A DNA stretch of 27,076 nucleotides from a virus: positions 1-27,076 of IMG/VR virus record IMGVR_UViG_3300033149_005665, one strand, 5' to 3'. Made by a program: the position numbers and the translations under genes. Positions 3,706 through 24,514 of the stretch are shown in pieces. A model generated the notes under the pieces. That model was not told the DNA's origin. It did not search any database and saw nothing but the letters and a program-made list of their open reading frames with translations. The stretch's first letter is position 1, and the number at the start of each line of letters is the position of its first letter.

Positions 3706-5202
3706 CTACTCATTCACTATGTAATAATCGTAACCATCATTAGACAAAGCCTCTTTTATTGCCTTCTCTACCTTCTCCACCTGAGATCTCGTTTCAGGAT
3801 CCGAAAGCACTAGCTTCTTTAGATTATCCAACTTAATTTTATCAATCTTCTTCTCCTCCTCTTCCGAGGACGCCCCCATCATATCCAAAAGTGAATCTGC
3901 TTCCTCGGCTGAAAGATTGAGAAAAAGATTTCGAATAATCCACTCGGTCGGAATGGAGACACCCATATCTGAATACAATTTTAAAGTAGAAGCCTTTAAC
4001 TCTTCTATTTCCCATCTAACTTTCTCGTCTGGATCACCAAGAGGAGGAAACTTAAACCGCCACGCAAAACTAAAAGGATCAACTCCGGCTAACAAAAACT
4101 CAAGCATATAGATTTTCTTTAACCCCTCAATCAACGACAAACGATGACGGCGAACCTCTCGTGCAAACGCTATGTTTTGCTGCACTAACGTAGCTTTCGC
4201 ATTAACGTCTCTTTCAAAACCAAGAAATGCCTTAGGAACCTTTGTCCCCGCAAACAACTTATTGTGGAAATGCTCAACGTCAGTTATTTCGCCAAGATTC
4301 TGATCGCCCTCTATGACTCTGAAGCTAGATACCCCACCCTTCCTAACAGGCACATAAATATCCTCTTGTGGTTTCAACGGATCGTCTCCATATCTCAACT
4401 TCCCGTCAGAATCAAAATATGGCATCCGTCTATTTATGAGCTGAATCTTTCTAATATACCTGGTGGCTTCTCTCTCACTCATTCCTGTAACATCGATTTC
4501 ATAGACGCCGCGCTGATTTGCTCTAACGACACGAGTCACGACCAACGTATCCTCCAACATACGTAAAACCCGATACGTCCTCCGCAATCTCTTTAACATC
4601 GAATGCTTGTAGCCGTATAACTCATCTCCGATCTTAAAATGGACTATTTCCCATGGAGCAAACTCCACTTCCGGTTTACCGAACTCATTGACCTGATAAA
4701 AAGGTTTTTCTTTATTGACTATGCCATCTTCGGTATTAATATACATCGTCTCCGCGGGTAACGGCTTCAACTTAACGATCGACTGAGGAGAACAGACAAT
4801 TTCATAAAAACAATCACCGTACTTGACGATCTTCCTAACAATAAACCAAACTTTATCCTTCAACCCAGTACGCTTCTCCAAACCCGCTATTGCATCATTT
4901 ATAGCATTAAGCTTTGTCCCTGCACTCTTCTCATCCACCACGCAAGAATACAACTCGCTCTCGGTCGTTCCGCTAACTGCGAAATCGGCGTGCACATCCA
5001 GCGATGAAGAGAGCTCCACAATATCATCATCCATATCCGAATAATCCTTATAGTGCGACAGCCGATCTTCGTCCAATTTAAAAAGACGAACATCGCTCCA
5101 ACTAGTCTGACGGCGCTCAGACGTTACGGGTATTGATTCCGGTTCCGCCCTCTTAAAAAGAGAAGTAATCCTATCTATAAGACGCTTTTGCAATTCTGCC
5201 AT
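3706..5202 (-). CDS. Portal protein (T4 gp20-like)
   Basis: This 498-residue protein would form the dodecameric DNA entry channel of the head and nucleate capsid assembly. Diagnostic for the T4 gp20 type are the conserved blocks DIYVPVRKGG (281-290), EGDQNLGEITDVEHFHNKL (298-316), KVPKAFLGF (321-329) and NAKATLVQQNIAFAREVRR (334-352). A helical stem follows, then PPLGDPDE and a C-terminal acidic region. Length is close to gp20 (about 520 residues). The start is ATG with AGAGGTAGG upstream. A good sigma70-type promoter sits directly ahead. It follows the large terminase by six small genes and opens the head-protein run, the usual order in tailed viruses. Confidence 0.92.
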   Translation of the reverse strand: MAELQKRLIDRITSLFKRAEPESIPVTSERRQTSWSDVRLFKLDEDRLSHYKDYSDMDDDIVELSSSLDVHADFAVSGTTESELYSCVVDEKSAGTKLNAINDAIAGLEKRTGLKDKVWFIVRKIVKYGDCFYEIVCSPQSIVKLKPLPAETMYINTEDGIVNKEKPFYQVNEFGKPEVEFAPWEIVHFKIGDELYGYKHSMLKRLRRTYRVLRMLEDTLVVTRVVRANQRGVYEIDVTGMSEREATRYIRKIQLINRRMPYFDSDGKLRYGDDPLKPQEDIYVPVRKGGVSSFRVIEGDQNLGEITDVEHFHNKLFAGTKVPKAFLGFERDVNAKATLVQQNIAFAREVRRHRLSLIEGLKKIYMLEFLLAGVDPFSFAWRFKFPPLGDPDEKVRWEIEELKASTLKLYSDMGVSIPTEWIIRNLFLNLSAEEADSLLDMMGASSEEEEKKIDKIKLDNLKKLVLSDPETRSQVEKVEKAIKEALSNDGYDYYIVNE

Positions 5203-5220: not shown

Positions 5221-5249
5221 AGAATAAGTCGCTCAGTGACCAATGTCAA
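5221..5249 (-). promoter_or_regulatory. Predicted sigma70-type promoter before the portal gene
   Basis: Reading the minus strand, TTGACA (5244-5249, perfect -35) is followed by exactly 17 bases and TATTCT (5221-5226, four of six matches to TATAAT). Transcription would start near 5214, giving a leader of about a dozen bases with the AGAGGTAGG ribosome site of the portal gene. It lies in one of the few true gaps of this strand. Confidence 0.6.
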
Positions 5250-5599
5250 ATGTTTTCGACCTGCCACGTGAAACTACCCTCACGCACAGAAACGCTCGTC
5301 AATCTAGCGAATTCTGGATCGCATTGAGCTTTTACTTTCTCCGAAAGAACCAAAATAAAATTAAGCGGAGTTGGATCAACGTGCTCAAACTCATCCAGGT
5401 GATTTAAAACTCTGTGCTTAAAATCGGACAGAACTCGGTTGGTCAACCTTTCAATATCTCTCGAATGCACAGAACGTTCTAACTCAAACTCAAACTTCAA
5501 CTCCCACGTATGCCCATGAAGTGAACTCTCCGATCCGACATACTCTGTTGAAAAGTGAGCTATATCTACACTAGTCGTCTTGACGACTTTTGCTCTCAT
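5246..5599 (-). CDS. Divergent QueD/6-pyruvoyl-tetrahydropterin synthase-fold protein
   Basis: Length (117 residues) and layout fit the T-fold QueD/PTPS family. The three zinc histidines are present: H15 in IAHF and H28/H30 in LHGHTWEL. H62 in the helix (KHRVLN) and E107 in SVREGSF also line up with conserved family positions. However, the catalytic Cys that lies four residues before the first HGH histidine is Glu24 here, and the Glu of the usual 'PTaEn' motif is Leu (PTPLN). Normal QueD makes 6-carboxy-tetrahydropterin for 7-deazaguanine synthesis. This copy probably binds zinc but catalyses something else, or nothing. No folE, queC, queE or dpdA is seen in the window. The start overlaps a small HTH gene by 29 bases. 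Confidence 0.75.
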   Translation of the reverse strand: MRAKVVKTTSVDIAHFSTEYVGSESSLHGHTWELKFEFELERSVHSRDIERLTNRVLSDFKHRVLNHLDEFEHVDPTPLNFILVLSEKVKAQCDPEFARLTSVSVREGSFTWQVENI

Positions 5600-5750
5600 A
5601 CATTTCCGCCTTTCTCATCCATCTTTTGACCGTCGATCGAGCTACTCCGAACCGCCTAGACAAGTGAGTGATTGGAATATTTCGATTACGATAAAGCTCT
5701 AAACATTTACGCCCGACCTCGAGTTGAATGTCGCTTGCATGATGCCTCAT
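5571..5750 (-). CDS. Small helix-turn-helix protein
   Basis: This 59-residue reading frame starts with ATG at 5750, overlapping the stop of the preceding membrane-protein gene as ATGA. It contains a clear HTH of the Hin/transposase type: IPITHLSRRFGVARSTVKRW, with the turn at FGV and a basic recognition helix. The N-terminal helix (QLEVGRKCLELYR) is typical of these domains. It runs 29 bases into the QueD-like gene, ending with a TAG at 5571. Probably a DNA-binding regulator or a packaging helper. No catalytic resolvase or integrase domain is attached. Confidence 0.7.
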   Translation of the reverse strand: MRHHASDIQLEVGRKCLELYRNRNIPITHLSRRFGVARSTVKRWMRKAEMYESKSRQDD

Positions 5751-5971
5751 TCCATTAAATCCTTTTCAGTCTTCGCTTCGCTGTTTTTCTCATAAAACAA
5801 TCCCAAGATACCTGCCAATACCACGAAAGCAACAACTATCACCCAAAAAGGTAATGTCTTGGCTACAACCCACAAACGACGGATCATTTCCAGACCGACG
5901 ACCAAAGAAAGACCGACAATAGCCATTGCAATTACCCCGGCCAAAAACGCCACAGTCTTAGACGATTGCAT
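5747..5971 (-). CDS. Small protein with two membrane segments, holin-like
   Basis: The 74 residues contain two hydrophobic stretches, TVAFLAGVIAMAIVGLSLVV (about 6-25) and PFWVIVVAFVVLAGILGLFY (about 41-60), separated by a short basic loop (RRLWVVAK), and a charged Glu/Lys tail. Size and topology fit class II holins, but also many small phage membrane proteins, and no endolysin is next to it. It lies one base after the preceding gene (stop and start almost touching) and ends in an ATGA overlap with the HTH gene, so it is part of the packaging transcript. Function unknown. Confidence 0.65.
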   Translation of the reverse strand: MQSSKTVAFLAGVIAMAIVGLSLVVGLEMIRRLWVVAKTLPFWVIVVAFVVLAGILGLFYEKNSEAKTEKDLME

Positions 5972-6196
5972 TTAAACCTCCCGCTCATTAAACAACTTAC
6001 CCTCTGACCTCCAAACCCTTCTAACAGGAAAAGTACCTCTACTAGTGGCGGAAGTCAAATATCCTAACCGTTCCAGACGACGCAAATCACGACGTGACAA
6101 TCCGGTCTCGGATGTCCAAAGCGCTACGCCTGGAAATACAAAACGCTTTCGGGCCTCTTCGATCAACGCATTCAAATCTGAAGTGTGTTTAGTCAT
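5972..6196 (-). CDS. Small winged-helix-like protein
   Basis: This 74-residue protein has the look of a compact helix-turn-helix: ALWTSETGLSRRDLRRLERL, then GYLTSATSRGTFPVRRVW, which reads like a recognition helix followed by a beta wing. The rest is helical and charged. It starts at the terminase stop in a TAATG overlap, so it is co-translated with the large terminase. Small DNA-binding proteins directly after terL are common in phages and may help packaging or regulate the late operon; the assignment to a winged helix is by eye only. Confidence 0.6.
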   Translation of the reverse strand: MTKHTSDLNALIEEARKRFVFPGVALWTSETGLSRRDLRRLERLGYLTSATSRGTFPVRRVWRSEGKLFNEREV

Positions 6197-8208
6197 TATT
6201 CCTCCTCCAAACCTTCTTCCAGCTCTTTTAAAAGAGTTTCCTCATCCAGCTCGTCCGTTTTGGGTTGAGGTTGTCGACCTCTCAACCTGTCAACGAACTC
6301 AGCCTTAATTCTTTCGTCTTCTGAAACTCTGGGTTCCTCCCTCCTAACTGAAAAATCTGAAGACGTCTGCCAAACTTCATACGTAGTAGCGTTCCAAACC
6401 ATCCCCGCCACTCCGTCCGCCACATCCTTTGAGCCGTTCGGTGGATGATCCACCTTCCCGGACTTCGGATCCCGAACGAGCTGTTGTAACTCTCTGAAAA
6501 GAGGATCATAATGATAACACTTAAACCTGCCCTCATAAATTGCTTCTTTGAGAACATTGTACTGATCGTCTGTCCTATCAACCGAAAGATAACCCACTAT
6601 CTCATCGCCGAATCGTCTCTTCAATATCTGCATAGAATCCTTAGACTGATACTGATCGTACGTTATCCTAGCAAACGTAAATCCACAAAGCCTTCTAAGA
6701 TCGTACAACAGTTGACGAACATCTTCTATCTGAATCTCTCCCTCAAGAGGAGGCAAGATTCTAAGAATTAAATCTGCCACAATAACAGGAGCCACCTCAT
6801 CTATTTCCTCCACCTTCTCATCAGTCTCGCGTCGACGTTTTACTTCTTTCAACTCCGCTATATGACCCACACAGATTCCGCAAGCGTCCTCTGAAAGCCC
6901 AAGATCTATATGACAAAACCTTCTAGCTTCTGGATTTAAAGCGGGTCGAGGTGGCTTATCCTGCGGTATCCTTGGATCTACCAAATCTCGAAACCGAAGT
7001 GCCAGATTCAACTCGGTCGAAACTATCCCTCCAGAATACATCGTTGAAAACGGAACCGGAATTCTTGAATCCACGCAAGCCTTAATGGCATCATCGTTGG
7101 TGAAAAACCTGTGAAGCGAGCGGACATTTAAACCGACCACATCTCGAATAGCACCTTCCAAATCTCTATCGAAATCCGACTTATACTCTATTGGAACTGC
7201 TACCACCTTACCCTTCTTCTTGTACACCTCCAACTCCTTATCATCCCTTATTTGATGCGGTTTTGACCAGGCGTCACCAACAAAAACATAGAACGTCTTA
7301 CCCGAAAACCTAGAAGCTGGCTTAGTTTCCCACGTAGAGTGAGAAATGACCATCGTATAAGGATCATTCTCAGCTATTATCTTATCCAAAAAATCATCTG
7401 GATATTTAGCTGACGAATTTAAAATTAACATCCCCGGAATTCTGCCTTTCTTCTGGAACCGAGACTTCATTCGCCGCCAAACAGCATCGTGAAGTTTCTT
7501 AGCTTGATCCCACTCCCTCTCCGCTGGATTTCGAATCTTCTTGCTACCAACCACAACCGGGAAGAAATTAGCTTCCTCAATAACACCGCCGAAAAGATTT
7601 TCTCCCAACGGAGCCAGCTCAGACGACGAACCCGGCACAAAAGAAATGAACCGCTGCGGCCAATACAACGCCAGCTTCAAATCCTGAGAACGAGGAAAAT
7701 ACTTCCGAAACCATGGTGACCCGTCCATCATATCTCTTAATGTTGCAAAAAACACACGACGAGCATGCGTGGCAGATACGGACAAATTCATGAATGAAAT
7801 ATGAGACGCTGGAGACAAACCATAATACCCCTGAGGATCTCTCAAACAACCAAGCTCATAAAGAATCCGATTCATACACAACGCGGAAAGAAACGTCTTG
7901 CCCCACCCTATTGATCCAGACAACACCACCCGAAGCGGTCTGGGATTGGCCTCCATTATCCGTAAAAAATCGCTTCTTACCATTGGCCAAACATTATTAC
8001 CAACATGCCCAAAATACTCTGGATCTCTCAGCCATCTCGTACAACTCACGGGTTCATGAATGTACTTCTCCTTAAGATACATGGAAGGTACGATGAACTT
8101 TTTTTCGCCTGTCTTTGCGGCTAAAGATACAAGAAACCTATGTATTTCGAGCGGAGAAATTCCTAGCTCCCTCTCTGCCTCTTGAAACAAAGAGGTATCC
8201 AACTGCAT
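6196..8208 (-). CDS. terL: Terminase large subunit (ATPase plus nuclease)
   Basis: This 670-residue protein is the DNA packaging motor. The ATPase has Walker A SGSIGWGKTF (97-106), Walker B GGVIEEANFF (207-216, acidic pair E211/E212) and a coupling motif LILNSSAKYPDDF (261-273). The C-terminal RNase H-like nuclease shows HIDLG (D435), TYDQY (D518) and SKDVADG (D595, D598), the usual acidic triad. The C-terminus is very acidic. Length fits the larger, T4 gp17-like terminases. It starts with a strong AAGGAG site in a TAATG overlap with the radical SAM gene. Packaging therefore appears transcriptionally linked to ParB/radical SAM proteins. Confidence 0.95.
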   Translation of the reverse strand: MQLDTSLFQEAERELGISPLEIHRFLVSLAAKTGEKKFIVPSMYLKEKYIHEPVSCTRWLRDPEYFGHVGNNVWPMVRSDFLRIMEANPRPLRVVLSGSIGWGKTFLSALCMNRILYELGCLRDPQGYYGLSPASHISFMNLSVSATHARRVFFATLRDMMDGSPWFRKYFPRSQDLKLALYWPQRFISFVPGSSSELAPLGENLFGGVIEEANFFPVVVGSKKIRNPAEREWDQAKKLHDAVWRRMKSRFQKKGRIPGMLILNSSAKYPDDFLDKIIAENDPYTMVISHSTWETKPASRFSGKTFYVFVGDAWSKPHQIRDDKELEVYKKKGKVVAVPIEYKSDFDRDLEGAIRDVVGLNVRSLHRFFTNDDAIKACVDSRIPVPFSTMYSGGIVSTELNLALRFRDLVDPRIPQDKPPRPALNPEARRFCHIDLGLSEDACGICVGHIAELKEVKRRRETDEKVEEIDEVAPVIVADLILRILPPLEGEIQIEDVRQLLYDLRRLCGFTFARITYDQYQSKDSMQILKRRFGDEIVGYLSVDRTDDQYNVLKEAIYEGRFKCYHYDPLFRELQQLVRDPKSGKVDHPPNGSKDVADGVAGMVWNATTYEVWQTSSDFSVRREEPRVSEDERIKAEFVDRLRGRQPQPKTDELDEETLLKELEEGLEEE

Positions 8209-9605
8209 TATTTCTCCTTTATCATCTTGGCTTTGATTCTACGATAAAACTCCAACTCCGCCTGTGGATTACCGTCGTTCGGTAAAACGAACTTCTTCTT
8301 CACCGTTTCGCACGCTTTCGCATAAGGCATGACCATTGGAAAATCCTTTTCGAAGTTGCCCCTATAAACATCCTCCAAACCATGCTTAAAAATAAACTCT
8401 CTCCACTCATCCAAACTCTTTCTCCAGAACTTCCTGGACTCCATGACTATCCTTGCTTGCTCCAACGTAGATCTGCGCAACATACAGAACGTATGTTCCT
8501 GCGCCGCTCGCATAACAGGAAACGAACGAAATCTTCTATTCTTTCCGGCCACCTTGCAAAAAATCTCATCGCGGTTAATATCACACTCATTCATCAAATC
8601 GTGATTTTCCATCGGGGTGTAAGGTGTTGGATCTAAATGCGTAAACTTCATAACTACCCGAGGATAACGGTCAATGTCTGCTGGAAGCTCTTCGACAAAC
8701 GCATCCACGTCGAACGGCTGATGCACTATCAGAAACAATTCCCAATCTATCTTCAACCGTTTGGTTATTGCCAAAACTGACCTAATCTCTTCCGGTTCGA
8801 TTGGCTTGCGATACCAAAGCCTACGCTGCGGGGTCAACCCCTCAATTCCTATATGAAGAAACTTTGACTTAGCATACTTATGCGGAGCCTGAAGAAAGCG
8901 TTTCACCGACACCGACTGAGCCGCTGAACAATCGAGAGTCGCAAACTCTCCCGTGTCATTCCCGACGAAATAAATACTCCGACCTCGATCTGCCAACGCT
9001 CGAAGAGGTGCCAACCTTTTTGGAGGAACCGTCTGATACTTATTCGCCCACGAAGTAAAACAGAACGAACACTTATTACGACACCCGCGACCCACCAAAA
9101 AATAATACATCTTCTTTGAAACCTGCACCGCTGGGATTTCATGCCATGGAATCTCGTAGCTTGGATAAGTTGGTTTGCCCAACTTTCCGCGATAAGTTAA
9201 ATAGGATTGCTCCTTACACCACTCGATCAGTCCTTCCACTCCCTTATCTGTCGGAAAATTCTTCATGAAATGATACCCTTCGCCTGCGCAAACAAAATCC
9301 GCAAAATTCAAAATGTATGCCGGTGTGAATCCTTCTATTCCGCCCGCTATAATCAGCGTCTTCGGAAACTGTTCTCTTAACTTTGCCAACTTATAAACAT
9401 CACCCGGAGAGTACAACGTGTAAAAAATGACGTTAAAATCCTTGGAATGGTCGGTTCTAAGACCCTTCTTGGCTAAATAATAACGGAACAGTCCCACCAC
9501 ATAGCCAGACAGCATATTCCTCTGCGAAGACGTATGCCAGATCCTTAACGGTTCTGGCGTCTTCTTTACTGCTGGCGCTTCTTTGACAATACCTTCTTTC
9601 GCCAT
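8208..9605 (-). CDS. Radical SAM protein with a B12-binding-like N-terminal domain
   Basis: The 465 residues begin with a Rossmann-like domain of the B12-binding type (about 55-115: VIFYTLYSPGD, IIAGGIEGF, ADFVCAGEGYHF), followed by the radical SAM core with GCRNKCSFCF (C175, C179, C182: CX3CX2C for the 4Fe-4S cluster). Further blocks HIGIEGLTPQ (251-260) and LIVHQPFD fit the later beta strands of the TIM barrel. The cobalamin-binding DxHxxG is not obvious, so the N-terminal domain may not bind B12. It is not QueE, whose Cys spacing and length differ. The substrate is unknown. It overlaps the ParB-like gene by 40 bases and terL by one, which suggests a role around DNA packaging, perhaps base modification (inference). 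Confidence 0.85.
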   Translation of the reverse strand: MAKEGIVKEAPAVKKTPEPLRIWHTSSQRNMLSGYVVGLFRYYLAKKGLRTDHSKDFNVIFYTLYSPGDVYKLAKLREQFPKTLIIAGGIEGFTPAYILNFADFVCAGEGYHFMKNFPTDKGVEGLIEWCKEQSYLTYRGKLGKPTYPSYEIPWHEIPAVQVSKKMYYFLVGRGCRNKCSFCFTSWANKYQTVPPKRLAPLRALADRGRSIYFVGNDTGEFATLDCSAAQSVSVKRFLQAPHKYAKSKFLHIGIEGLTPQRRLWYRKPIEPEEIRSVLAITKRLKIDWELFLIVHQPFDVDAFVEELPADIDRYPRVVMKFTHLDPTPYTPMENHDLMNECDINRDEIFCKVAGKNRRFRSFPVMRAAQEHTFCMLRRSTLEQARIVMESRKFWRKSLDEWREFIFKHGLEDVYRGNFEKDFPMVMPYAKACETVKKKFVLPNDGNPQAELEFYRRIKAKMIKEK

Positions 9606-10504
9606 TCCTCATACTCCTTCTGTTTTGCGACCCGCTGAGATTCTTTCAGTTCCTGCCAATAAGCCATAAACTCTTCTGACCCGGGTAGCTTTAAGTTGGT
9701 GGGTGGTCCGACCTCCTCCGTCAGAACCTCTATCAGATACTTGGCTATCCACTCACCCGCCAACTCCCGTTCCGAACGATTCGATCCGAACCGTTTAGAA
9801 AGCAGTGACACTATCTTATCTATAACTTCCCTCTGAACAACGCCTCCAAAACTTCCAAACGATATCACTATCAGATCCGCACCGATGGGAACATATGTCT
9901 TGCCATCGGATTCTCGATACTCTGCCTCTGGTGAAAGAGGTGCGGAATCTTCTGCCTCATCCACATCTTCCACCACCTGCTCCAACGATATCGGACTCTC
10001 AATATCCACCGCTAGCATACCCATATCAAGCTCGTTAACGTGTGGCTTTATAAGCTTGGCTACCTCAAGAGTGTCGTAGAATCCGAACGACTGATTATCT
10101 AACAGCGAAATCTCTATCTTCTCCGCATACGATCTAGGTGTCACAACACAGACTTCCACCATCTCATCATCGGAATAACCCAAAATCTCTTTCATCGCGC
10201 GATACCGCATATTCCCACCGCCTACAACATACTTACCTTTCTCTCTTTCCTTAGGCCATACCGTCAACGTCTTAAATAGCCCATACTTCTCTATACTTCT
10301 TGCTAACGCTTGCAATTTCTCCGGTGTGATAATTCTTGGATTCACATCCCACATCTCGATATCACCAAATCTAACAGTCTTAAACTCCGGTGGATGCTTT
10401 GTCGCTGCAAGTCTTTGAGTGTGATCCATAGACTCTATAACCACCTCACCAACCTGCATCTTGCCCTTCTTCTTCGGCTTAACCTTTTTAACTCTTCGTG
10501 GCAT
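9566..10504 (-). CDS. ParB/Srx-fold protein, paralogue 1
   Basis: This is a 312-residue protein with a basic N-terminal tail (RRVKKVKPKKKGK), then a ParB/sulfiredoxin-type domain: VRFGDIEMWDVNPR (44-57), LARSIEKYGLF (67-77) and the nucleotide-binding box GGGNMRYR (95-102). ParB proper uses this fold for CTP; other members are nucleases or unknown. There is no HTH centromere-binding domain and no ParA in the window, so partitioning is unlikely. The block EKIEISLLDNQSFGFYDTLE and the C-terminal half align with the neighbouring 240-residue protein, so the two arose by tandem duplication. Overlaps: 17 bases with its paralogue and 40 with the radical SAM gene. Confidence 0.85.
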   Translation of the reverse strand: MPRRVKKVKPKKKGKMQVGEVVIESMDHTQRLAATKHPPEFKTVRFGDIEMWDVNPRIITPEKLQALARSIEKYGLFKTLTVWPKEREKGKYVVGGGNMRYRAMKEILGYSDDEMVEVCVVTPRSYAEKIEISLLDNQSFGFYDTLEVAKLIKPHVNELDMGMLAVDIESPISLEQVVEDVDEAEDSAPLSPEAEYRESDGKTYVPIGADLIVISFGSFGGVVQREVIDKIVSLLSKRFGSNRSERELAGEWIAKYLIEVLTEEVGPPTNLKLPGSEEFMAYWQELKESQRVAKQKEYEEWRKKVLSKKRQQ

Positions 10505-11210
10505 TTTCTTCCTCGCTTTCTAACTTTTCAAGAATCCTCTGCGACGCCCAAAGAACTCCTTCACGCATTGCCTGCCTGGTATTTCCATACTTTCGATGAA
10601 GAAGCTCTGCGACCGCATCAGTATACACCGCTGAAATGGTACAAATGTAATGACCCAAGCCTATCACTCCTAAATAACCCGTAACGGGATAACGGCAATG
10701 GGGGCCCTCGTTCTCGGATGCGTGAGGTACGATTGGCAGCTCTTCCATCTCCTCTATCGCGCCATAATCAAAAGCTATGGTTTCCAGCAACATCGGAGGT
10801 GAAACGGAAAAAGAAATCATATCCATGTCAATCTGATCCGCATACGGTCGAACAAGATTGGCAACCTCAAGCTCATTATACAGCCCGAAAGCCTGATTGT
10901 CTAAAATAGAAAGCTCTATCTTTTCCGCTTCCGTCTCTGGAAAATTTAAAGAAATGTAGATAGGTTTACCCCTCGGCCACTTCAGAACATCCTTCAATAC
11001 CCTATACCTCATATTCCCGCCACCCGTTACAATCTTATCACCTTCTTTCCAACACGTAAGATTCTGAAACATCCCATACTTAGCTACACTATTTGCCAGC
11101 TGCCGCAGTTTGGTTGGATCAATCTTTCTAGGATTCTTCTCCCACTCATGAATCTCTCCGAACGGAACCGCCTTAAATTGAGGTGGCTTCCGCTTCTTTT
11201 TCTGTGCCAT
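10488..11210 (-). CDS. ParB/Srx-fold protein, paralogue 2
   Basis: The 240 residues show PFGEIHEWEKNPRKIDP (16-32), LANSVAKYGMF and the same box GGGNMRYR (63-70) as the following gene, then EKIELSILDNQAFGLYNELE, again shared. The C-terminal domain (LGVIGLGHYICT and helices) also corresponds to that of paralogue 1. This is the first gene of the ParB-ParB-radical SAM-terL transcript: ATG with AAGGAGG seven bases upstream and a predicted promoter just ahead. A role in DNA processing or modification before packaging is an inference from context; partition is unlikely without a ParA or parS. Confidence 0.85.
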   Translation of the reverse strand: MAQKKKRKPPQFKAVPFGEIHEWEKNPRKIDPTKLRQLANSVAKYGMFQNLTCWKEGDKIVTGGGNMRYRVLKDVLKWPRGKPIYISLNFPETEAEKIELSILDNQAFGLYNELEVANLVRPYADQIDMDMISFSVSPPMLLETIAFDYGAIEEMEELPIVPHASENEGPHCRYPVTGYLGVIGLGHYICTISAVYTDAVAELLHRKYGNTRQAMREGVLWASQRILEKLESEEENATKS

Positions 11211-12914: not shown

Positions 12915-14282
12915 TTAGTCATTGGGAACGAAAAGAGGGCAAACGCCTTTGGGTTTCCGAACTCCTTTTAAACACTGCGACGATTCCCCCAAATAAAATC
13001 GGCAATTTGCACATATGTCTTCGTCTGCTGGGACGAAATCGGGGCAAGCTTCTGGACCCGCTAGAATCTCCTCGTTACAGTACGAGCAAAAAGCCTTCTC
13101 GGCTCCACTTTCCATCGTCACTACTTTAAAATACTGACAATCTGGACAGCGAGAAGACTCAGTAGTCGGAACAAAAAGCTTACAACTCCTCCGAAGAAGC
13201 GATAGATTACGCGCTGGAAACGACTCGGAACAAGCGAACTCGCCGTCGTCTATCACCAAATGTTTACAACGCAAACAGACACACGTCTCAGAATCCTCCA
13301 ACTCTTCAACGTCATTTTCCTCATCCTGCCGCTTAAACTCCGAACACGGACAAGAAGCTTCTATAACACCCCCCTGAAGTGAACATCGCGCGATCTCATT
13401 ACCATTTAAATCCTCTGCCACGCTAAAATAAACACAATCAGCAGGACGCTTCGCCGTTTTGGCTGGAATAAACCGGCCGCACTTAGTCCAAAGGCGAGAA
13501 AGAGTACGACCGGGAAAGGACTCGCCGCAAAAAAATTTGCCTTTATCAATCAGCAAATGACCGCACTCCAAACAACCACCCAATCTAGAGGGAGAGTCGT
13601 TCGGAACGGAAATAGTATGAATGGTCGTACCTGGAAGAAACGACTGACGACCGTAATAAGGACGCGTGACTTCCTCCTTAACTTTCTCTGAAATCTCTTT
13701 ACGATACCGTTCCTTCTCCTTCGCCGTTAATGAATCCGCTACCACCACATTAAAAGGATCAAAAGTCACCCTAGCTGGAAAAAAGATAGATGGAAGGCCG
13801 CATGACTTCTGTAGATCGGATCCTAAAGATGACAAATAACTCAAATCGACATCCATTCTCGCTTTCATCGAACCATCCACGCACATAACCACACTAACCA
13901 ACCACCCGGTAGAGCGGGCTAACTTTGCTATCGTGTCAGTGTCAATGGAGGACCAAAAGGTTCCCATCGAAACATGAGAATGTATCCAACATTTTAAAGC
14001 CTCTGGATTCTTATGAGAACTCAAAAAAGCGGCCACGGACGCCATATCGAATGACGCTGAACCGAATGACACCTTCTGATCCAACAGATGAACCTGCTTA
14101 ATAACGAACCGAGAAGCCTCTGCGTCTAGCTTGACCTCTCCCAAAAACTGAACCTCGTTTGGGTCGCACTCACGAGCGATGAACAGCAACTTATCATAAA
14201 CCTTTCTTGGAAAAAAGACTGACCAATCTGCTAATTCATCCCCAAACATGACATTATTGCTAACCTTTTTTACACCCTTCAT
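12915..14282 (-). CDS. JAB/JAMM isopeptidase with a duplicated Cys-rich C-terminal region
   Basis: The 455 residues begin with a JAB (MPN+) metalloprotease domain. E43, then HSH (H101, H103), seven residues, S111 and D114 give a complete HxH-x7-SxxD signature. Such enzymes cleave ubiquitin-like proteins from targets or trim Ubl precursors. From about 235 on there are some 25 cysteines in small zinc-finger-like clusters. One unit is duplicated: CLECGHLLID, FCGESFPGRTLS (237-262) and CLRCKHLVID, ACSESFPARNLS (336-361), each followed by a second CxxC-type cluster; a last cluster ends the protein. These may recognise substrates. It starts three bases after the E1 stop with a GAGGTG site, and is the last gene of the Ubl cassette. 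Confidence 0.9.
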   Translation of the reverse strand: MKGVKKVSNNVMFGDELADWSVFFPRKVYDKLLFIARECDPNEVQFLGEVKLDAEASRFVIKQVHLLDQKVSFGSASFDMASVAAFLSSHKNPEALKCWIHSHVSMGTFWSSIDTDTIAKLARSTGWLVSVVMCVDGSMKARMDVDLSYLSSLGSDLQKSCGLPSIFFPARVTFDPFNVVVADSLTAKEKERYRKEISEKVKEEVTRPYYGRQSFLPGTTIHTISVPNDSPSRLGGCLECGHLLIDKGKFFCGESFPGRTLSRLWTKCGRFIPAKTAKRPADCVYFSVAEDLNGNEIARCSLQGGVIEASCPCSEFKRQDEENDVEELEDSETCVCLRCKHLVIDDGEFACSESFPARNLSLLRRSCKLFVPTTESSRCPDCQYFKVVTMESGAEKAFCSYCNEEILAGPEACPDFVPADEDICANCRFYLGESSQCLKGVRKPKGVCPLFVPND

Positions 14283-14284
14283 TT

Positions 14285-14968
14285 TTACACCTCAAACTTA
14301 ACGATAGTCAGATCCGCCATACTAATGGCGGTGTCCCGAACGACCTCGTCGTTCTTCAAATAGCGACGGACTATATTCGTCACGACGGACGCGACCATAA
14401 AGCCGACATCGATTATGGATCTGGCTGTACAAGACTGCTCCGACCCTTCTGCGTTAGAGAAAAGATTCTTTTCATACCACTTATGGTGCATCGCATCGTT
14501 GATAGGTCGAATAGCTAAAATCCGAATGGTCTCTCCGCCGATCCTACCATCAATATAAAGCGGAACGAAAATGTTCTTCTTAACATGTTCCCAGATTTCC
14601 TTGCGGCCGGCGTGTTCATGTTCTTCATCTTTTCCCATGCTGTCAACTGCCGCTATCACAATACCGTTCAAAACATCATCGGTTGACCAAAACCGATTCA
14701 TGGCCTCCACTTTAGTACCTGTCAACTCCTCAATTATGTCCGCGAGCGCCTCAACCTTTGGCCTTCCTACGTCAGACAACTTGAAAAACTGATTGGGAAC
14801 GTTGTGCTCTTCAACTACATCGCCATCCCAAACGGTTATCCTCGCCATCCCCAACTTTGCCAACGCAATTGCAGTAAAAGAACCAATGCCACCCGCTCCT
14901 ATAACATGAACGTTAACATCTTCATAATCTAAAGGATTGAAAATATCAACCTGTCTGCGAAACTCCAT
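14285..14968 (-). CDS. E1/ThiF-like ubiquitin-activating enzyme
   Basis: This 227-residue protein has the adenylating Rossmann fold of the ThiF/MoeB/E1 family: VIGAGGIGSFTA (nucleotide loop, about 22-33), DGDVVEEHNVPNQFF (acidic and Asn residues for Mg-ATP, 48-62), DVGRPKVEAL (Arg/Lys, 66-75) and AAVDS (107-111). C180 in EQSCTARS lies where bacterial E1s carry the catalytic Cys that forms a thioester with the Ubl. No extra domains; length is typical for stand-alone ThiF. I chose ATG 14968 because AGGAGG lies six bases upstream; a GTG three bases earlier is possible. It overlaps the E2-like gene by 23 bases. Confidence 0.9.
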   Translation of the reverse strand: MEFRRQVDIFNPLDYEDVNVHVIGAGGIGSFTAIALAKLGMARITVWDGDVVEEHNVPNQFFKLSDVGRPKVEALADIIEELTGTKVEAMNRFWSTDDVLNGIVIAAVDSMGKDEEHEHAGRKEIWEHVKKNIFVPLYIDGRIGGETIRILAIRPINDAMHHKWYEKNLFSNAEGSEQSCTARSIIDVGFMVASVVTNIVRRYLKNDEVVRDTAISMADLTIVKFEV

Positions 14969-16370
14969 CACTTTCCTCCTTTATAGGTTTAACGCCCCAT
15001 CGCTCCGCCAGGCTCTCGACTGACGTGAAGCGATCATCATCGTTATAAGAATTCAAGAAATTCCAAATGACCTGAATTAACACCGTCCAATTCCAATCCG
15101 CCCACAACTTATACACCCCTTCCTTAATATCGCCCCAACAAACACTTTCGCCACTATCTGTCACATGAGGATGCGTATAACTTGTATTCTGATGGTCTAA
15201 ATTAACAAGATGAATATCTGCGGTTGAGGAAGATGAAAGAGAAATGCAGATCCGAAACCGACCGAGAGGATAAATCATCCCATTGTATCGAATCCTAGCC
15301 TCTGTTGTATCAAATTCCAACCAAGAATTGCAAAACCCAATTCGTTCGATAAACGGAAAAGACGCTATTTCCTGTAACTGAGCCTCGACATCCTTACGAA
15401 TGACCGCTCTGCGATCCGCAGTTGCCTTAGCCAACGCTTCCTTCTCCTTAGATATTGCTGCTGAAATAGAAATCATCGAATGTATCGTCTTGTCTACCTC
15501 CCTTTTTATTCCATTTAAGGGTGGAATCTGTGCAATGAAACTGTCGACTCCGGCTTGAAAAGCTTGCTCATACGAATCTGGAGAGCCTGCGAAAAGCTCC
15601 GCTATTCTTCGAAACTGTCTGGCGCGTTGTCGTTTTTCCTGCGGATCATCGACCTTCTCTGATTTTAGCTTATTCAGCTCATCCAACACAAACTTAGCGG
15701 AAAAATAGGCGGACACTGCCATTTTGAACTCTTTCTGTTTCTCATCAAAAGCGGCTGCCAAAACCGAAATCTTATCCCTCAACCCCCGCTCTATTCGACC
15801 GGACTGTGAAATCAACCTATCCGTAACTGCGTCGACCACCCTTGGTTCCACACTTGTGATCAAAATGCGCTGACGAGCCTGCTCCTCCGCCTTTCTCAAT
15901 TTTTCCATCCTATTTGATTGAGCTGCGGAACGAACGTTGGGAACCGAAACTGACCGCAACCTACCATGCTCATCCACTCGCAGCTCTGTCTGAACTTCTT
16001 CTGGTTCGAGTATCGGGTACCTGCGAAAAGCTGCCTGAATCCGTCGTTGAACTTCACTAACCTCAATCCGCATCTCATCCAATACTGCCTGAACCCTATT
16101 TAAAGTCTCGGATGACAATCGAGGCTCTGAACCGGTATCTTCCGTAACTGATTGACCTTGAATCTGATGCCACTGCCAACCTTTCTCCTGACAAATATCT
16201 CTTATAATATTAAAAGACTCAGGATGAACACAAATATTGCCATCCTGATCCACGAATCCCAAAAAAGAACGATTACGAACTGATGCTAAGACGGTGGAGG
16301 CGGGAACAACTTCGCCACCCGCTGTCTTAACGACCCCCACCGCCCAAGAAGCATCAAGAAGGAACCGCAT
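14946..16370 (-). CDS. E2-like ubiquitin-conjugating protein with a long helical N-terminal region
   Basis: The last ~130 residues of 474 fit a prokaryotic E2 (UBC-like) domain: YPLGRFRICISL (368-378, central strands), then THPHVTDSGESVCWGD (399-414), in which HPH and C411 correspond to the HPN and active-site Cys of E2 enzymes, followed by helices (VLIQVIWNFLNSYNDDDRF). The N-terminal part starts with a small domain (about 1-75) and continues as long charged helices (150-335), possibly a coiled coil. That region has no recognised family and may hold the target or the E1. It should accept the Ubl from the E1 encoded next (23-base overlap) and pass it on to a protein. It starts three bases after the Ubl stop. 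Confidence 0.85.
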   Translation of the reverse strand: MRFLLDASWAVGVVKTAGGEVVPASTVLASVRNRSFLGFVDQDGNICVHPESFNIIRDICQEKGWQWHQIQGQSVTEDTGSEPRLSSETLNRVQAVLDEMRIEVSEVQRRIQAAFRRYPILEPEEVQTELRVDEHGRLRSVSVPNVRSAAQSNRMEKLRKAEEQARQRILITSVEPRVVDAVTDRLISQSGRIERGLRDKISVLAAAFDEKQKEFKMAVSAYFSAKFVLDELNKLKSEKVDDPQEKRQRARQFRRIAELFAGSPDSYEQAFQAGVDSFIAQIPPLNGIKREVDKTIHSMISISAAISKEKEALAKATADRRAVIRKDVEAQLQEIASFPFIERIGFCNSWLEFDTTEARIRYNGMIYPLGRFRICISLSSSSTADIHLVNLDHQNTSYTHPHVTDSGESVCWGDIKEGVYKLWADWNWTVLIQVIWNFLNSYNDDDRFTSVESLAERWGVKPIKEESDGVSQTG

Positions 16371-16373
16371 CCT

Positions 16374-16607
16374 TCACCCCGCTACAATAGAATCGACTAA
16401 AACCAAACCGTCTCCGGGTTTAACTATCGCTGCTTCATCGACCTGCTGACCGTTAAGGAAATACTGCTCTGCTCCACCCTCCAAAATGCCGCGCTCGATT
16501 AAAGTCTGAATAGACACTCCTTCCGGTTCCTCAATCACGACGGTTTTAGGTGGACGGCCTAAATGTAGAACCCTTATGCCTTCATTCGCTATCGCATTTT
16601 CTGACAT
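16374..16607 (-). CDS. Ubiquitin-like/ThiS-like beta-grasp modifier
   Basis: The 77 residues follow the beta-grasp pattern: strands IRVLHLG and KTVVIEEPEG, helix SIQTLIERGI, then YFLNGQQVDEAAIVKPGDGL and a final strand LVLVDSIVAG. The 'NG-x-x-V-d, i-x-x-GD-x-l' signature is that of ThiS/MoaD and bacterial Ubls. The C-terminus is Ala-Gly, not Gly-Gly, with nothing after it, so no processing is needed. With E1, E2 and JAB genes directly following, it is most probably a conjugated modifier rather than a sulfur carrier. AAGGAGG six bases before the ATG predicts strong translation, and a copy of the three-fold motif lies 30 bases upstream. Confidence 0.85.
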   Translation of the reverse strand: MSENAIANEGIRVLHLGRPPKTVVIEEPEGVSIQTLIERGILEGGAEQYFLNGQQVDEAAIVKPGDGLVLVDSIVAG

Positions 16608-17488: not shown

Positions 17489-17516
17489 TTAATTGTCACG
17501 GAGCTAAAATCTTCAC
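17489..17516 (-). promoter_or_regulatory. Conserved 28-bp motif, copy 2
   Basis: Minus strand: GTGAAGATTT, eight bases, TGACAATTAA, ending 17 bases before the ATG of the 202-residue gene and immediately before its GGTGGAGG ribosome site. It overlaps the last codons of the ParB-like gene. Spacing is identical to the other two copies; the eight middle bases are unrelated, which points to a two-part binding site rather than a recent duplication. Confidence 0.6.
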
Positions 17517-18154
17517 TTCTTCGTTTTTATTTCGAAATTGGATCCCTCATACTTCATACAAAGACTCAAAAAATCTGCCTCCAAAGATTGGCGTTGTGTT
17601 TCCAGAACCGACATAGGACACGTGAAGACCACCTCACAGCGGCGGTGGTCGTCGTTCGATGTGGATGCAGGCTGCGGCACATGCGGCGCCTCGAAAACGT
17701 CGCTATCCGCCTCTCTCCACCTTAAAAGATCTTCCAAATATGCTGGATCCCAACCGACCAAATACTCCTTCTGTTGTGATGTGGCTTCCAAGTACCAATT
17801 AATCAACTCATCATAATCCCAAGAGGCTTCCTCGGCTATCCTGCCTTCCGAAAGAATATAAGTCATGTACTCTTCCGCGCTAAGATTAACTCGAACGCAT
17901 TTAATCTTATCAAGATTTAAAACTTTCGCCGCTTCCAACCGACAATATCCGCCCAAAAGAGTATTATCTGCTGAAACTATACACGGATCCACGAACCCAT
18001 AACGACGAATCGACTCGACCATATGATCAACCTGGTCTTTGGGATGAATTTTTGGATTTCTCAGCAATTTAAGATCCTTTATAGAAATCCATTCTATTTC
18101 ATTAAAATGTTCACGCAACTGCTCCTCCAATCTGTTTGATAGTTGAAACTCCAT
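17513..18154 (-). CDS. ParB/Srx-fold protein, third and divergent copy
   Basis: The first 120 of 213 residues form a ParB N-terminal-like domain: EWISIKDLKLLRNPKIHPKD (21-40), MVESIRRYGFVDPCIV (45-60) and LLGGYCRLEAAKVLNL (66-81), matching the 'GexRleAak' box of ParB. The rest (EASWDYDELINWYL, GWDPAYLEDLL) resembles regions found in ParB-like proteins next to or fused with phage DNA methylases ('nWdeel-eel' pattern). No methylase is attached here. It overlaps the Rad50-like gene by 44 bases, so it is read with the recombination genes. It is clearly different from the paired ParB-like proteins in the packaging region. Confidence 0.8.
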   Translation of the reverse strand: MEFQLSNRLEEQLREHFNEIEWISIKDLKLLRNPKIHPKDQVDHMVESIRRYGFVDPCIVSADNTLLGGYCRLEAAKVLNLDKIKCVRVNLSAEEYMTYILSEGRIAEEASWDYDELINWYLEATSQQKEYLVGWDPAYLEDLLRWREADSDVFEAPHVPQPASTSNDDHRRCEVVFTCPMSVLETQRQSLEADFLSLCMKYEGSNFEIKTKK

Positions 18155-23536: not shown

Positions 23537-23702
23537 CTTCCACCTCCACAACCCGCATTAATTCTCTAAAATTCTCATCCATCATTGGACAGTTTTCGTC
23601 AAACTCTTCGAGTTTTACAACCCTAGTCAAATGAAAAAACTCGCAAATACCTTCCTCATCATCCAAAGGCTGACAATGTTCGCAATCCCTGCACTTCTTC
23701 AT
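23529..23702 (-). CDS. Cys-rich microprotein (57 residues)
   Basis: The ATG at 23702 shares a base with the stop of the endonuclease gene (TAATG), and the frame ends in TGA at 23529. The N-terminus has CRDCEHC (4-10), followed by C20 and C38, an arrangement for one zinc ion: CxxCxxC, GICEFF, NCPMM. This pattern recalls small bacterial 'CxxC-H-C...C-CP' proteins. Strongly acidic overall. Its coupled position suggests it is expressed with the repair genes, but no function can be named. Confidence 0.7.
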   Translation of the reverse strand: MKKCRDCEHCQPLDDEEGICEFFHLTRVVKLEEFDENCPMMDENFRELMRVVEVEDE

Positions 23703-24514
23703 TACTCCTCCTTTAAAATCCCAATCATTCTAATCGCATCGAAAAAAGGATGAGGCGTTTCGCAAATAAGCGTCACGTCCAGATCTCTTCTTTTCAACTC
23801 CTTAGCTAACGGCTCGAAAAACGAATCCTCGAACGCAACGTGCCGCCTTTCGCCCGCCTTAGTAAACTCGATGCCTGAAAAATGACAATGCAACTTACCA
23901 CCTGACACCCCCTCAACCTTATCCAGAACCTCTGAAAAATCTATCTTGCCCAAATTCCTCGCATATATATGAGCGAAATCGACACAAAACCCAATACCCA
24001 GATCCTCCGCTAGCCGAACCAAACTTTCCACACTACCCCACTGCGCCAGTCTGCCAGCCGTTTCTGGTGCAAGTTTTATCCCATTCCACCCTTTACCGTT
24101 TATCTCTTCCAAAACTCGCAACAGCGATGCTCTCACGACCTCATAGACAACATTTTCATCTCTGCCATGATTGAAAGCTGGATGGAAAACGACATATTCC
24201 GCTCCTAACCTATGCGCCATTGCGCACGATTGAACCAATCGCCGAATGGATGCTTCGATTTTACTTTCTGTTAAAGACGCGAAATTTATCCAAAAAGGAG
24301 CATGAACACTAACCTTAATCCCCATATCTTCTGCCGCTTCGCCAATTATTTCCGCTTTCTGCTCGGACATTTTTATGCCATACACAAACTCAATCTCCAC
24401 CGCTTCGATTCCTACATCTGCCAACACCCCAAGAGCGACCGTATCAGGAAGCGACGCGCCTGCCTGTGTCTTAACGGCGGGAAGTCCGGCTACGCCCACT
24501 CTAATTTTTCCCAT
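23702..24514 (-). CDS. Endonuclease IV-like AP endonuclease (xylose-isomerase TIM barrel), archaeal-type
   Basis: 270 residues of the AP endonuclease 2/Nfo superfamily, which cuts at abasic sites in base excision repair. Metal ligands line up with Nfo: H71 (SVHAPFWINFAS), H111 (VVFHPAF), E151 (LAPETAGR), D179 and H182 (VDFAHIYAR), H209/H211 (LHCHFSGIE), H225 (ERRHV) and E252 (CETPHP). The Asp of Nfo's 'DRH' is not conserved (ERRH). The wording VEIEFVYGIKMS, HAPFWINFAS and GERRH is closest to what I know from archaeal and thermophile relatives. Overlaps the preceding gene by 14 bases; ATG with GGAGG upstream. Confidence 0.85.
   Translation of the reverse strand: MGKIRVGVAGLPAVKTQAGASLPDTVALGVLADVGIEAVEIEFVYGIKMSEQKAEIIGEAAEDMGIKVSVHAPFWINFASLTESKIEASIRRLVQSCAMAHRLGAEYVVFHPAFNHGRDENVVYEVVRASLLRVLEEINGKGWNGIKLAPETAGRLAQWGSVESLVRLAEDLGIGFCVDFAHIYARNLGKIDFSEVLDKVEGVSGGKLHCHFSGIEFTKAGERRHVAFEDSFFEPLAKELKRRDLDVTLICETPHPFFDAIRMIGILKEE

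Follow-up and report, generated by a model that had tools for sequence, protein, structure and literature searches.

In QueD (PTPS-I) an Asp-His dyad has a catalytic role and a Glu anchors the pterin. Around the zinc site PMC5041015 gives the motif CxxxHGH for QueD, ExxHGH for PTPS-III and CxxxxxHGH for PTPS-II, the biopterin branch. In phages QueD is part of dG+/dPreQ0 cassettes, for which Hutinet et al. 2019 (PMC6884629) describe a FolE-QueD-QueE-QueC-DpdA-like set, the set with Gat-QueC predicting 7-deazaguanine (dG+) DNA modification. Here we describe a QueD-derived gene found without the rest of this set in a viral DNA of 27,076 bases (the window, a linear IMG/VR record and a fragment), located between the terminase and portal genes. 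The protein and its motif positions are given below, with G001-G013 denoting the viral records with which the window was compared.

5246..5599, minus strand: PTPS/QueD-fold protein of 117 aa with a non-canonical active site (open reading frame, Pfam match, alignment and predicted model)
5555..5557, minus strand: His15, a zinc-ligand position, invariant in 9/9 distinct family proteins (alignment)
5510..5518, minus strand: His28-Gly-His30, zinc-ligand positions, both His present in 9/9 (HAH in G003)
5528..5530, minus strand: Glu24, codon GAG, in place of the catalytic Cys of QueD (alignments and codon listing)
5414..5419, minus strand: Lys61-His62, where QueD has the Asp-His dyad (alignments)
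5363..5365, minus strand: Leu79, in place of the Glu of the QueD PTxE motif (alignment)
5279..5281, minus strand: Glu107, the pterin-anchor Glu position, present in the window protein and lost in G002, G003, G005 and G013 (alignment)

The window protein scores above the curated cut-off of the Pfam PTPS model (PF01242, 47.2 bits against 22.4) and has the features of the PTPS superfamily (PF01242 / COG0720), namely the T-fold in its predicted model together with His15, His28 and His30. The AlphaFold2 model, made from a 9-sequence alignment, has a mean pLDDT of 93.1 and a pTM of 0.85, and its best solved matches in Foldseek were PH0634 (E 6e-9), P. aeruginosa PTPS (1e-7) and E. coli QueD (1e-7); Z against the PTPS, PH0634 and QueD chains was about 15 to 16. 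The most eroded relative, G003, which carries HAH and is without the Asp-His dyad, gave a model with a pLDDT of 94.9 whose top matches were E. coli QueD chains, these two being the proteins modelled out of nine distinct family members. On these models the window protein is predicted to fold as a PTPS T-fold with the zinc His retained.

Like viral and cellular QueD the window protein has the fold, the zinc His triad, the anchor Glu and the genome position at which G010 and G012 carry a canonical QueD, but it departs from QueD at the dyad Asp (Lys61), at the catalytic Cys and at PTxE. An earlier note made from the sequence alone had described H15, H28 and H30 as intact, the Cys as replaced by a Glu and the Glu of PTxE as Leu, and the alignment agrees at each position: the three His are present, Glu24 lies four residues before the first His of HGH so that the motif reads ESSLHGH instead of CxxxHGH, and P76-T77-P78-L79 stands where PTxE would be. 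Beyond that note, the dyad Asp is replaced with its His (His62) kept and the pterin-anchor Glu107 is kept, the equivalence of the dyad and anchor columns being taken from the family alignment and an alignment with solved chains. The QueD equivalog model NCBIfam TIGR03367 gives 30.6 bits against a cut-off of 89.25. Motif, dyad and NCBIfam cut-off lead us to reject a canonical QueD. PTPS-II is likewise rejected on its motif, Gly22 standing where that class has its Cys, six residues ahead of HGH.

Other described relatives resemble the window protein in part. PTPS-III (the archaeal/Plasmodium folate or methanopterin branch, here P. vivax PTPS and, by its motif, PH0634) shares a Glu near HGH, and PH0634 is both the closest solved chain by sequence and the best Foldseek match; in PTPS-III however the Glu is at -3 relative to HGH, whereas in the window protein it is at -4 and Ser is at -3, and we therefore do not place the protein in PTPS-III on its motif, retaining that class as a functional rival only. 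SCO6650 of Streptomyces coelicolor (PDB 3d7j) also combines a PTPS fold with a non-Cys residue at the Cys column (Ala in the alignment), but has Ala at the third His position (HGA) and is a cellular protein. The best NCBIfam model for the window protein, TIGR03112 (6-pyruvoyl tetrahydropterin synthase-related domain), remains far under its cut-off at 36.1 bits against 69.35.

Related records (G001-G013) were gathered using portal and terminase queries and a terminase alignment, the last of which also yielded 34 more distant records. In total, 12 of the 14 records (window and G001-G013) carry the PTPS gene; it lies between terminase and portal in all of them except the short contig G012, where it directly follows the terminase. 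The two without it are G009, which is near-identical to the window but ends inside the terminase, and G008, a distant portal match only (25%). Among the 34 more distant records, with terminases of 26-38% identity, no PTPS was found. As G003/G004 and G005/G006 are identical across 3.3 kb around the gene and G010/G011 differ there at 11 positions, the 12 records represent nine distinct proteins. The nearest relative carrying the gene is G001, with a PTPS 78% identical to that of the window, and outside G001 the identity to the window falls to 22-35%. In nine records with a complete interval (window, G001-G007 and G013) terminase and portal are 1.0-1.8 kb apart and PTPS is the sole cassette-type gene seen between them, as in G002 where it occupies 53451-53840 of a 1.6 kb interval. 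The surroundings of the gene in the window are as follows.

3706..5202, minus strand: T4-type portal protein, beginning 43 nt after the PTPS gene (Pfam search)
5571..5750, minus strand: ORF of 59 aa that overlaps the PTPS start and probably encodes a helix-turn-helix protein (by eye)
5747..5971, minus strand: 74-aa hydrophobic protein, a probable two-helix membrane protein (by eye)
6196..8208, minus strand: terminase large subunit, at the other end of the terminase-portal interval (searches among relatives)
8208..9605, minus strand: radical SAM protein with CxxxCxxC (Radical_SAM 22.5 bits, below cut-off), an inconsistent neighbour of PTPS

Small proteins resembling the 74-aa hydrophobic one by eye lie upstream of PTPS in G001, G002, G010/G011 and G012. 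Searches starting from the PTPS itself reached few sequences: the window protein as a single-protein query gave no match in viral contigs, and tblastn against annotated phages gave three weak matches with a best E of 0.5. The G007 and G002 proteins as queries matched, besides themselves, L157-L161 (L159-L161 being the same gene), all with Cys at -4, and these two scans gave no further acidic family members. Beyond the gathered records the portal scan returned matches of 26-30% identity among the best 80 of 124, and the terminase alignment run against genome contigs gave two distant matches (35% identity), in a Desulfurobacterium MAG and a Thermovibrio MAG. Each of these MAGs has a single PTPS match (L143 and L144) with the CxxxxxHGH spacing of PTPS-II, unlike QueD, and both were left out of the PTPS tree described below.

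Further features of the window lie outside this interval. An E1-E2-JAB-Ubl cassette is found at 12915-16607 (minus strand), comprising a JAB-like protein (Prok-JAB 16.6 bits, below cut-off), a ThiF/E1 protein (65 bits) and, by eye, a 474-aa protein whose C-terminal motif resembles E2 and a ubiquitin-like protein of 77 aa that ends in Gly; bacterial operons of this type are described in PMC1779556. The four parts all have matches in G005/G006, G007, G010 and the near-identical G009; G002 matches three of them, the Ubl excepted. Two ParB_N-like proteins, both below cut-off, are encoded at 9566-10504 and 17513-18154 (minus strand), the gene at 10488-11210 (minus strand) matches the same G002 gene as that at 9566-10504, and ParB-like genes also occur near the que cassettes of G010 and G012. 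An AP_endonuc_2 / xylose-isomerase-like TIM barrel (23702-24514, minus strand, 97.9 bits) has its sole match among the records compared in the near-identical G009. Across 475-24514 Shine-Dalgarno-like motifs precede 22 of the 26 listed genes where the background is 23%, which suggests that the host uses SD-led translation; no such motif was matched ahead of the PTPS gene.

At the same genome position G010/G011 have a far longer terminase-portal interval of 11.8 kb, containing QueD, QueE, FolE, an amidotransferase-QueC fusion, a second QueC and a DpdA-like protein that matches phrog_887 ('queuine tRNA-ribosyltransferase'). By comparison with Hutinet et al. 2019 (PMC6884629) this content, which matches the described set where in the window only the QueD-derived gene was found, predicts a 7-deazaguanine (dG+) DNA modification. 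The FolE of G010/G011 bears an N-terminal phosphoribosyltransferase-like part (below cut-off). The que cassette of G010 (L056 8283-11391) additionally encodes a methyltransferase, a radical SAM protein and an AdoMet decarboxylase-like protein, which may tailor the modified base further. In the 4.8-kb record G012 the order is terminase, ParB-like, small membrane protein, QueD, QueE and FolE, and the record ends before any portal. The QueDs of G010 (101.8 bits) and G012 (94.2 bits) pass the TIGR03367 cut-off; of the other relatives, all but G013 were scored and were below it (G007 75, G002 55, G005 47, G003 36 and G001 34 bits).

The earlier note had seen no other 7-deazaguanine gene in the window, and this stood up to profile searches for FolE (PF01227), QueC (PF06508) and TGT (PF01702) and to a G010 QueE query, all without a match in the 27-kb linear record; the TGT model did not detect the DpdA-like protein of G010 either and so carries little weight for the absence of DpdA. 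By blastp the latter protein had no match outside G010/G011 among the records compared. Profile searches found no FolE or QueC in the whole records of G001-G007 and G013, and for QueE the query returned, outside the cassette, nothing stronger than larger radical SAM proteins of G004, G006 and G007, matched weakly at 26-31% identity (E 8e-6 to 1e-4). The family records are all classed as linear and are often fragments, as is the window, and que genes may sit elsewhere in these genomes.

Across the nine distinct proteins, all of which have an open frame and the zinc His triad, the residue at the Cys position is Cys in G010, G012 and G007, Glu in the window, G001, G002, G003 and G005 and Asp in G013. 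The conservation of E24 among homologues, which the earlier note had marked for checking, thus extends to five of nine proteins with Asp in a sixth. By contrast the Cys, the Asp-His dyad, the PTxE Glu and the anchor Glu are kept in 10/10 comparator QueDs of other phages, hand-chosen from 65 phage records with a match, and we therefore take the acidic pattern at the Cys position to be more than chance. The Glu codons are all GAG, the Asp codon is GAT and the Cys codons are TGT, so that TGT to GAG takes three base changes and TGT to GAT two. The remaining site is less constant: the anchor Glu is kept in the window, G001, G007, G010 and G012, and the dyad His in these five and G002. Among the six acidic proteins the anchor Glu is lost in four and the dyad His in three (G003, G005 and G013).

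The PTPS gene is under purifying selection. Between window and G001 it has a dN/dS of 0.074 and a pN/pS of 0.17, the latter being the safer figure as dS (1.70) is near saturation, and for the same pair pN/pS is a similar 0.13 for the portal and 0.31 for the terminase. A dN/dS of about 0.07 indicates that the gene is no pseudogene. A remnant decaying without function, suggested by the lost catalytic residues and the high divergence outside G001, is accordingly barely credible against this constraint, the open frames and zinc His throughout the family and the confident predicted folds of the two modelled proteins.

The history of the locus was followed in trees of the terminase, the portal and the PTPS. 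In the terminase tree G010, G012 and G013 group at 100/100, and in the unrooted portal and joined terminase+portal trees G010 and G013 are split from the other six at 100/100. Rooted on two outgroups with long branches, the terminase tree places G010, G012 and G013 inside the other six (83/98), without rejecting a single clade of those six (p-AU 0.26). As this rooted tree gives no clean separation of records with and without the cassette, cassette loss and cassette gain are both compatible with it: it is possible that the window lineage lost a cassette, or that the G010/G012 lineage acquired one or built it up around QueD, with or without replacement of the QueD itself. The PTPS tree, which comprises family proteins and phage QueDs and no cellular QueD, puts the nine family proteins on one side and the ten other phage QueDs on the other at 82/85, which is not strong, and within the family the seven PTPSs without a cassette group at 95/92. 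G013 is placed differently here than in the terminase and portal trees, and its grouping with G010/G012 on PTPS is not rejected (p-AU 0.089). The presence of the canonical residues in all ten comparators suggests that they are ancestral. The proteins with Glu are weakly united in the PTPS tree (65/72), whereas the joined terminase+portal tree has the Cys-bearing G007 beside window and G001 (84/94), with a p-AU of 0.055 for a forced Glu clade. The Cys may have been lost once or several times, the trees differing on the number.

The reading that we favour, which we would put a little short of an even chance, is that a former QueD was retained in a different role near the head and packaging genes, a zinc-stabilised and probably non-catalytic one. 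The ancestor of the gene would be a viral QueD in which Cys, Asp-His and Glu were all in place, as they still are in G010/G011 and G012 at the same genome position, and in the window lineage the gene would stand there alone with its catalytic Cys and dyad Asp gone. Glu24 (Asp in one relative) would lie at the zinc and close or re-tune the site, so that the metal may stabilise an oligomeric T-fold scaffold in place of driving the synthase reaction, and the protein, probably no longer making 6-carboxytetrahydropterin, may serve the surrounding head and packaging functions as a scaffold or binding protein. The shift away from QueD activity proposed by the earlier note draws support from the loss of Cys and dyad Asp, from the lack of a detected partner gene in the record, from conservation and from purifying selection. 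A structural role, also raised there, is possible and would fit gene position and co-conservation in the terminase-portal block, although position alone does not establish it. Against the favoured reading, the window and G001 proteins retain His62 and Glu107, so that a pterin site may survive in them, and G007 keeps its Cys with no cassette detected.

Those same kept residues, with the zinc His, bear on the main enzymatic rival, catalysis of the PTPS-III kind, in which Glu24 would act as the base in place of Cys and turn dihydroneopterin (tri)phosphate into 6-hydroxymethyl-dihydropterin, feeding folate for DNA synthesis. Glu is the residue in the PTPS-III motif according to PMC5041015, structure entries of P. 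vivax PTPS E37A/E37C are titled 'catalytic residue mutant', and PH0634 carries ExxHGH; but the position is offset by one, with Ser or Ala at -3 in all nine family proteins, and the frequent loss of anchor Glu and dyad His among the acidic proteins also counts against it; we judge such chemistry unlikely. An inactive QueD could instead interfere with the host, sequestering intermediates or mixing with host QueD so as to lower 6-carboxytetrahydropterin, CDG and preQ0 and blunt defences that use deazaguanine. The QatC and Cap9 defences are proposed, in PMC13329287, to attach deazaguanine to partner proteins, and the window protein retains the zinc His, His62 and Glu107 for such a role. This we judge distinctly improbable, as the anchor Glu is missing from four of the six acidic proteins, the gene sits in the terminase-portal block and an identity of about 18% to E. 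coli QueD makes mixed oligomers doubtful.

The earlier note had also suggested that the protein might work alongside the nearby radical SAM enzyme in a new reaction, and this fared poorly. The radical SAM gene directly precedes the terminase and is about 2.6 kb away from PTPS, relatives of 46-52% identity hold that place in G002 and G003/G004, and in G013, which ends 0.4 kb above the terminase, a 60-aa piece resembles a radical-SAM (SPASM) tail by eye. The protein at that place is however only 27% identical in G001, where PTPS is 78% identical, and 23% in G007, and G005/G006 have no radical SAM ORF beside the terminase and yet keep PTPS. Since PTPS is constant while the radical SAM neighbour varies, a dedicated partnership appears unlikely from gene order and identity, and a joint new reaction very improbable.

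Taken more broadly, we regard as plausible, with the balance still somewhat against it, that a QueD became a core protein of this phage family, keeping its zinc T-fold in the absence of the other 7-deazaguanine genes, gained an acidic residue at the Cys position (perhaps more than once) and now either helps to assemble the head and portal or inhibits defences that depend on deazaguanine. In the open-licence literature searched we recognised no report in which a phage QueD lacks the Cys or a virion protein has the QueD fold.

At one place in the genome this virus family shows three states: the complete anti-restriction cassette of G010/G011, the lone, Cys-bearing QueD of G007, and lone Cys-less QueDs that keep the zinc His (the window and others). 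Together these states, to which no order is assigned, make a change from enzyme to another function testable. They also advise caution in annotating such Cys-less genes as QueD. QueD is an enzyme that helps some phages to disguise their DNA, and its relative in the window, kept beside the packaging genes with the rest of the pathway not found, suggests another job; if the retained protein is structural or anti-defensive, it would be a clear example of a metabolic enzyme turned into a core protein of a virus.
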